Part shown: one piece after another, positions 38,594 to 58,780 of the stretch
How the letters are laid out: the number at the start of each line of letters is the position of its first letter
How positions within the stretch are numbered: position 1 is the stretch's first letter
Assembly: GCF_003350375.1 (NCBI RefSeq)
Contig: NZ_QQAR01000007.1
Span: 124,001 to 188,000 of the forward strand
DNA from: Flavobacterium sp. AG291
Lineage (GTDB): Bacteria; Bacteroidota; Bacteroidia; Flavobacteriales; Flavobacteriaceae
DNA: 64,000 bases
Direction: 5' to 3'
Notes under the pieces: generated by a model
Databases searched by the model: none
Seen by the model: the letters and a program-made list of their open reading frames with translations, nothing else
What the model was told of the DNA's origin: nothing
Program-made: the position numbers and the translations under genes

Positions 38594-39092
38594 CTTAATA
38601 AATTTTAATGTTATTGATGCAAAGGTAGATGCACTTCTTCCCGACAACTTTGTTTAAAAGACCTAATTTGCTTTGTTTAAAAGACCAGCGCAGAAGCAAA
38701 GTGACAGGGAAGAACAATGACCCCTGAGTAATCTTTTAGGTATTTATTAAACTAAAGGGAAAAAGTTATCCCTCGATACGACATAACTCTTTTTTCAAAA
38801 TAAATAAAATTATCATGAGAAATTAAAATCACGTAAAACTACGTGGAATTTTAGCACCAGGATTTAATACATTGTTCTTTCTAAGAGCTGTCTATGGCTT
38901 TAAGTTTGGCACAATAGCATAATTAGAAAACCTGAAAGACAATTTACAGTCGTATTTGATAAAACTGGTGAACTGAGCTAACGATAGAACATTTTACAGG
39001 CGGTTACCAGTCAAACCGGACTGAACAGGTAATTCAGGTACACTTACATCATTCATACATATTTACAATATCTATAATTTAAAAAAATACTA
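38594..39092. other. 500-base intergenic region upstream of the tail-sheath gene
   Basis: No gene is seen. It contains the shared block at 38823-38846 and a TAAGTTTG box at 38901-38908 without a good -33 partner. The piece at 38730-38775 resembles the outer part of the IS6 remnant at 40800-40850 and may be a third trace of that element. Confidence 0.4.
38823..38846 (+). promoter_or_regulatory. Shared upstream block of the tail-sheath gene
   Basis: TTAAAATC, two bases, GTAAA, one base, CTACGTG recurs at 58624-58647 upstream of the YVTN propeller gene with 20 of 24 positions identical and the same orientation relative to the gene. It lies 247 bases before the ATG. The inner part ACGTAAAACTACGT has ACGT half-sites, suitable for a dimeric regulator. 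Confidence 0.6.

Positions 39093-56334: not shown

Positions 56335-56335
<1 letters not shown>
55742..56335 (-). CDS. ThiE/TenI-like paralogue
   Basis: This 197-residue protein of the same fold begins MLIVITNPVIF, with a GTG start that overlaps the thiC stop by one base (TAGTG). It keeps LLHMRKPG, YGINRIHFTES, FLSPVYNSISKPGYAPD and LIALGGIS, but the phosphate-binding and metal-binding segments are changed (no QLR.K, no ND.). This pattern is typical of TenI-type thiazole tautomerases; a divergent ThiE is possible. It is in the operon between thiC and thiE. Confidence 0.8.
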
Positions 56336-58188
<1,853 letters not shown>

Positions 58189-58431: not shown

Positions 58432-58467
58432 CTACGACTGTACACGGAGGAACGTCAAAGTCATCTT

Positions 58468-58546
58468 ACTTTTCCCTACGGCAGTATGAGCTGCATCAGG
58501 TTCAGAGGGTAAAATCTCAGCCTACGGTAGTAGACACCCCTAAAGT
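58468..58546 (-). promoter_or_regulatory. TPP riboswitch (THI element)
   Basis: On the minus strand the conserved aptamer parts appear in order: GGGGTG (near 58540), CTGAGA (near 58520), ACCCTCTGAACCTGATGCAG, and the GTAGGGAA end (near 58473). P1 is ACTTT (58546-58542) with AAAGT (58472-58468). A further ACTTT just downstream can pair with the same AAAGT, giving an alternative helix when TPP is absent or present. It controls the whole thiS-thiF operon. Confidence 0.95.
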
Positions 58547-58551
58547 TGCAG

Positions 58552-58623: not shown

Positions 58624-58647
58624 TTTAAAATCGGGTAAATCTACGTG
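58624..58647 (+). promoter_or_regulatory. Shared upstream block of the YVTN propeller gene
   Basis: TTAAAATC, two bases, GTAAA, one base, CTACGTG matches the block at 38823-38846 upstream of the tail-sheath gene at 20 of 24 positions. It lies 134 bases before the ATG at 58781. A small stem AGTGCT/AGCACT (58663-58682) follows. Confidence 0.6.
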
Positions 58648-58780
58648 ATTCCGAGTCCTTTTTAGTGCTTAGTTTTAGCACTCCTTAAACCTGGATCTAT
58701 AAAAATTAGAGGTCAACTAAAATTAAAAAACGAGGACAGCCAAAAAACAAACCGATAAAATTAATTAAACCAAAAATACT

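Follow-up and report, generated by a model that had tools for sequence, protein, structure and literature searches.

The sheath and propeller genes and their upstream blocks

The window analyzed here is a stretch of 64,000 nt from contig NZ_QQAR01000007.1 of Flavobacterium sp. AG291 (contig positions 124,001 to 188,000), and its features of interest are listed in Table 1. The first of the two genes in question encodes a contractile-tail sheath protein, for which the PDB matches that follow 9r9h are other sheaths, including those of Afp and Pvc. No second Phage_sheath_1C gene was found in the AG291 genome (G000; 3.83 Mb in 30 contigs). The gene resembles the sheath genes of eCIS (Afp2-4, Pvc2-4, and the rest of the PDB tail sheath family, with 9r9h nearest) by sequence, and differs from them in being a single gene: among the neighboring window genes examined, no tube, baseplate, spike, or ATPase gene lies in the same locus, and the neighbors encode an SDR, an AraC regulator, a hybrid kinase, a lactamase-fold-like protein, and a DNA ligase. 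An AlphaFold model of the sheath, built from five sequences, reached a pLDDT of 37.9. Relatives with 64–72% identity occur in F. rakeshii, F. beibuense, Dokdonia pacifica, and an uncultured Arenicella assembly. On the contig of the last of these, which is gammaproteobacterial (L072:8001-10113), a 170-aa gene, by eye one for a tail-tube protein, comes after the 64% relative, and this locus may reflect either transfer across phyla or a mis-binned contig. The second gene encodes a β-propeller protein, for which a search of 149 other Flavobacterium genomes gave no match at E ≤ 1e-20.

Table 1. Genes and predicted control elements in the window.
Feature	Position	Strand	Remarks
Predicted regulator site of the sheath gene, TTAAAATCACGTAAAACTACGTG	38823..38845	+	palindromic core CACGTA-N4-TACGTG; exact core match with two other sites in the AG291 genome
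Predicted -7 box, TACATTGT	38868..38875	+	22 nt past the site; TAnnTTGY variant (SM5 motif of F. psychrophilum in the available text of PMC9723704)
Predicted transcription start of the sheath gene	~38880
Orphan contractile-tail sheath protein, 526 aa	39093..40673	+	Phage_sheath_1C, 1.7e-13; PDB 9r9h sheath, 6e-112
TPP riboswitch	58456..58551	-	ahead of the divergent thi operon; adjoins the propeller promoter
Predicted regulator site of the propeller gene, TTAAAATCGGGTAAATCTACGTG	58625..58647	+	exact core match
Predicted -7 box, TAGTTTTA	58670..58677	+	22 nt past the site; one mismatch to TAnnTTTG
Predicted transcription start of the propeller gene	~58682
YVTN/lactonase-type β-propeller protein, 369 aa	58781..59890	+	see text

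A preliminary description of this DNA had reported a 24-base block that recurs upstream of both genes. The window sequence confirms that the two blocks exist, that both are intergenic, and that they have the same orientation. The reported identity of 20/24 holds by eye for 58624-58647 against 38822-38845, whereas the pairing with 38823-38846 originally given yields 10/24, which is a register slip of one base; common to both blocks is the 23-mer TTAAAATCnnGTAAAnCTACGTG, at the two site positions of Table 1. The distance of 247 nt to the sheath ATG is correct, and that to the propeller ATG measures 133 nt rather than 134 nt. An IUPAC pattern of the 23-mer has two matches in the window at up to three mismatches against 0.02 expected, an expectation that is flattering given that the pattern was derived from the same two sites. 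When all 24-mer pairs in the ~9.8 kb of intergenic DNA of the window were compared, five pairs with at least 20/24 identities were observed, against a mean of 1.25 and a maximum of 3 in 20 Markov simulations. Because chance alone should produce one or more such pairs in this intergenic DNA, the pair alone proves little, and the two-site match by itself is weak evidence. It is the genome-wide data described below, and not the pair in the window, that make the block convincing.

The similar sequence AAAAATACTA in front of both ATGs, which had been put forward as another shared sign, is unspecific. Strings like ATACT or ATACTA also precede the ATG of the unrelated SDR gene (51240) and that of a thi-operon gene (56335-58155), and, according to the available text of PMC6847099, initiation regions in F. 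johnsoniae are generally A-rich. The translation-start sequence was accordingly rejected as a regulatory sign and is regarded as general A-rich context. A structured RNA leader was also considered; the sheath leader gave no Rfam match at gathering score, and near the propeller gene the Rfam search gave only the TPP riboswitch of the divergent thi operon.

A wider palindrome at a fixed distance from the promoter

The core AAATCnnGTAnnnCTACGTG occurs exactly three times in the AG291 genome and its reversed control not at all. The third copy, TTAAAATCAGGTATTTCTACGTG, is located 49 nt before the ATG of a gene for a 176-aa protein of the PixA (inclusion body protein) family. A search at three mismatches gave 107 matches against 134 for the control and hence no excess. 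Inspection of near matches revealed a wider palindrome, AAAWCRSGTA-N4-TACSYG, which consists of two facing CASGTA half sites and which, with up to one mismatch, has 26 oriented matches in the genome against 1 for the control. Oriented counts take both readings of a perfect palindrome, and the 26 matches correspond to 20 unique sites, 15 of which lie outside ORFs of at least 70 aa. A -7 box, defined as TAnnTTTG with up to one mismatch or as TAnnTTGY, follows the site at a distance of exactly 22 nt in 12/20 of these, with each of the other spacings (5–69 nt) found at no more than two sites. One of the 12 promoter-type sites, C8:87712, faces a gene on the opposite strand, and we therefore speak of about 11 promoters; site C2:331303 serves both directions.

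None of the 59 relatives searched, of which 36 belong to the same genus, has the narrow core; only the wider palindrome is conserved. A slightly narrower form of it was found in 8/40 genomes of relatives (AG291 included; control 0). The exact motif is present in 47/150 Flavobacterium genomes, again counting AG291; its oriented matches number 121, compared with 6 for the reversed control, and 101 unique sites are left once the palindrome readings are merged, of which 4 are inside an ORF of at least 100 aa. Of 119 oriented matches, namely those in the surrounding DNA after repeats of the same context had been dropped, 62 have a -7 box at 22 nt, compared with a mean of 2.03 and a maximum of 7 for other spacings, and 58 of these 62 promoter-type sites face an ORF on the same strand no more than 450 nt away. 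Counted on unique sites, a TAnnTTTG box at 22 nt accompanies 56/101, leaving 45/101 without. The spacing was not built into the search pattern. Both a palindromic operator-like site common to several promoters and a fixed distance between this site and the core promoter (62/119 in the genus, 12/20 in AG291), as belong to a NarL-type regulon, are found here.

In the transcription start map of F. psychrophilum, the σA -7 box TAnnTTTG and its SM5 variant TAnnTTGY are placed at -12 to -5 (available text of PMC9723704). The boxes 22 nt past our sites fit both forms and, since such a box maps to -12 to -5 in that species, the center of the palindrome is predicted to lie near -42.5, just upstream of the -33 region. 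A difference from the promoters described there is the palindromic site itself, of which no description was found in the available part of that source.

Genes downstream of the site

The products encoded behind the ~11 promoters of AG291 are mixed. They comprise the sheath, the propeller, the PixA protein, a tail collar protein (PF07484) and, in the other direction from the collar gene, a regulator operon; a PI-PLC-like protein that includes a stretch of ricin-type lectin (below the Pfam cut-off); a Cas2-like protein of 81 aa; an Ig-like protein of 133 aa (below cut-off); a β-helix protein; two proteins with starts that resemble signal peptides by eye; and one unknown protein. Across the 58 sites with a target in the genus, tail collars and the p117 family are the largest groups with six members each, followed by two Pvc16_N genes and two other pairs, and the rest are singletons. 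As the genus targets are mostly singletons of mixed kind, the regulon appears broad and variable between species. PixA has only remote matches (26–29%), in 4 of the 149 other Flavobacterium genomes. The p117 family (L037:4742-5095, minus strand, and relatives), which has no Pfam and no PDB match, supplies the first gene of the kinase/regulator operon as well as one of the two commonest target families. In relative G004 (L093), the gene behind one site, whose -7 box is perfect, has an SpvB-domain match. The preliminary description had named two observations that would speak against a regulatory block: unrelated downstream genes, which are indeed present genome-wide, and a lack of conservation in close relatives, which does not apply to the wider palindrome.

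The site is kept in front of some sheath genes only. Upstream of a lone sheath gene of G199 (43% identity), an exact site lies 251 nt from the ATG, and TAAATTTG follows this site after 21 nt and not 22. The sheath genes of F. rakeshii and F. beibuense have a weaker site, CAGGTAGTATTACGGT, 22 nt before TAAATTTG. Over 560 nt upstream of and around its sheath site, G024, a genome classed in the same genus, is identical to F. beibuense F44-8, which places the genus as Flavobacterium. No site was found within 600 nt of the ATG of the 71–73% sheath orthologs in G099, G006, and G030, nor within the same distance in Dokdonia and Arenicella.

The relatives G152 and G030 each carry a Pvc16_N gene with a sheath gene behind it, an arrangement of eCIS type, and 61 nt ahead of the Pvc16_N gene there is an exact site whose -7 box is perfect. 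General control of eCIS-type operons by the motif was considered and rejected, as no comparable site was found at 14 further Pvc16_N/sheath loci, where the best score on the operon strand is at most 3.9 (training sites, 33.9 at the 5th percentile); Pvc16_N was recognized in 8 of these 14, and in none of the eight does a site stand in front. A different palindrome, AAGGGG..CCCCTT, is carried by 6/14 of these loci (L285, L286, L290, L292, L293, and L294, from G006, G071, G085, G101, G105, and G113), upstream of the sheath operon and in the form AAAAAAGGGG-N6-CCCCTTTTTT or near to it. In five of the six, it is positioned 22 nt (measured from the aligned 20-mer) before TAATTTAG. This palindrome may be the site of a sister regulator that uses the same geometry, or it may be a conserved terminator. 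In G006, a gene for a 286-aa GerE protein (L298:2258-3118, minus strand; at the Pfam cut-off) precedes the Pvc16_N-sheath genes, and AAAACAGGTAATACTACTCA is found ~260 nt before the GerE gene.

A candidate regulator

An operon at G000:C2:328.6-331.1 kb encodes, in order, p117 (117 aa), a membrane protein with a 7TMR-DISM match below cut-off, a HisKA_3 kinase, and a response regulator. Domain search places a receiver and a GerE domain in the latter, the composition of a NarL-type regulator paired with a HisKA_3 kinase, and VraR and NarL are among the nearest full-length regulators of solved structure (PDB). A single site is located between this operon and the divergent tail-collar gene, and each direction has its own -7 box at 22 nt.

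Matches to the regulator occur in 62/150 genomes, that is, in 41/47 genomes with the motif and in 21/103 others (Fisher p = 4.6e-15, a test that treats genomes as independent and an association that is not corrected for phylogeny). This comparison was made with the exact motif, at E ≤ 1e-50 and with up to 19 candidates scored in each genome, so that misses are possible on either side, and 21 of the 62 regulator genomes are without the exact motif. An exact site is also close to the regulator gene, within 3 kb in 14 genomes against ~0.14 expected for genomes of 4.3 Mb. In 12 of these (AG291 and 11 others) it is on the upstream side of the operon at 1.3–2.1 kb, and in two it is on the 3' side. 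At 40 further regulator loci, ~7 motif-like upstream sites were seen by eye and one of these has a -7 box with up to one mismatch; for this reason, autoregulation by the motif does not appear to be general. Two other GerE genes adjoin sites in the AG291 genome. Site C3:119278 (L073) has the gene for the Ig-like 133-aa protein on one side and that for a PAS-GerE regulator on the other.

Discussion

Our preferred interpretation, to which we assign a probability of about 0.65, is that the block is the binding site of a dimeric NarL/LuxR-type (GerE) regulator that is placed in class II geometry at about 11 scattered promoters, with the regulator of the C2 operon as the likeliest binder. Class II activator geometry is familiar from the sites of NarL, VraR, and the LuxR-type boxes. 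The membrane module or the kinase would sense a signal, upon which the regulator would be phosphorylated, and the phosphorylated protein would bind the two CASGTA half sites, which are separated by 4 bp. Bound there, centered near -42.5 and 22 nt from the σA -7 box, it would occupy the position of a class II activator and would probably activate rather than repress. The regulator would thereby turn on its own operon, the tail collar, the orphan sheath, the propeller, the PixA-like and PI-PLC-like proteins, and others. The earlier proposal of one regulon is backed by the third exact site, the genus-wide motif, the fixed spacing, and a regulator operon that itself bears the site.

The arrangement is like that of known NarL/FixJ regulons in that a receiver-GerE regulator is encoded beside a HisKA_3 kinase and the palindrome stands just upstream of the promoter, and unlike them in that the targets include genes derived from phage tails. 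The combination of CASGTA-N4-TACSTG with a 22-nt spacing to the Bacteroidota -7 box was not met in the literature searched, including the available portions of PMC9723704 and PMC8213781. According to the available text of PMC8213781, GerE regulators adjoin 25.8% of eCIS loci, with a kinase upstream in 9% of those, and GerE control of eCIS operons was proposed there from gene neighborhood. Our case agrees with that proposal in the type of regulator, sometimes accompanied by a kinase. It differs in that, in G000, G152, and G030, the regulator gene and the sheath or Pvc16_N-sheath operon are on separate contigs and regulation would be in trans, in that a DNA site and its geometry can be given, and in that the targets include a lone sheath without eCIS neighbors.

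The identity of the binding protein is the point on which an alternative deserves most attention. With the same type of site and the same regulon, the binder could be the second response regulator (G000:C2:340954-341619), the PAS-GerE protein encoded at C3:119278, or several paralogs sharing the motif, and we regard this as possible although unlikely. The second regulator occurs in 11 genomes (14/150 were matched, and the matches in G075, G097, and G101, at 41–42%, are the first regulator in the same place), it is present in 4/6 of the motif genomes that are without the first regulator, which would fit paralogs that share the site, and its gene adjoins sites in G000, G024, and G027, as the PAS-GerE gene adjoins one. 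Its coverage of the motif genomes, however, is 6/47 compared with 41/47 for the first regulator, and the AG291 site near it is at the 3' end of the gene and has no -7 box. We consider it very improbable that the palindrome works as an intrinsic terminator or another RNA hairpin and not as a protein site. A/T-rich flanks surround the inverted repeat, and over the 101 sites the central pair is complementary above chance (62 versus 39, Fisher 0.005); this excess, however, is due to the sites without a -7 box (35/45 hairpin-compatible, 10/45 broken). At sites with the box, the variable central pair breaks the stem in 29/56, which argues for a protein site, and the fixed spacing to a promoter box also speaks against a terminator. 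A terminator hairpin was therefore rejected for the promoter-type sites, and some of the palindromes that have no -7 box may be of another kind.

The first suggestion, a single surface or injection machine that includes both the sheath and the propeller, receives hardly any weight from us. The two genes have the site in common, and tail collars are one of the two largest target families (6/58), yet many other targets are unrelated, the only sheath gene found in the genome is without the other tail genes beside it, and the propeller has no match (E ≤ 1e-20) even in the sheath-bearing genomes G006, G024, G030, and G099. The mixed targets, the lone sheath, and the lack of a propeller match at this threshold in the other 149 genomes thus do not bear out a dedicated sheath-plus-propeller system, and the link to injection is only indirect, through the site before the Pvc16_N-sheath operons in G152 and G030. 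Least credible of all is a chance similarity of two A/T-rich intergenic stretches with no function. The number of pairs of this quality expected in the window and the lack of excess among loose genome-wide matches would be in keeping with it, but the third exact site, control counts of 0–6, and a 22-nt spacing that lies outside the search pattern are not.

Returning to the binding site of a GerE regulator, a further and rather doubtful extension is that the two-component system, acting in trans, co-activates scattered tail-derived parts (the lone sheath, the tail collars and, in two relatives, the Pvc16_N-sheath operons) together with proteins that by eye have no evident export signal (the propeller, the PixA-like protein, and the PI-PLC/ricin-lectin protein) as one program. 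If this were true, the product would be a tail-derived particle built from several loci, or a sheath filament, plus cargo. In the literature searched, we found no case in which the control of eCIS-type and orphan tail-sheath genes in Bacteroidota had been worked out. A concrete predicted operator, a fixed geometry, and a kinase/regulator operon that bears the site make the question directly testable, and the site offers a handle for finding cargo-like or tail-derived genes that lie far from injection loci.
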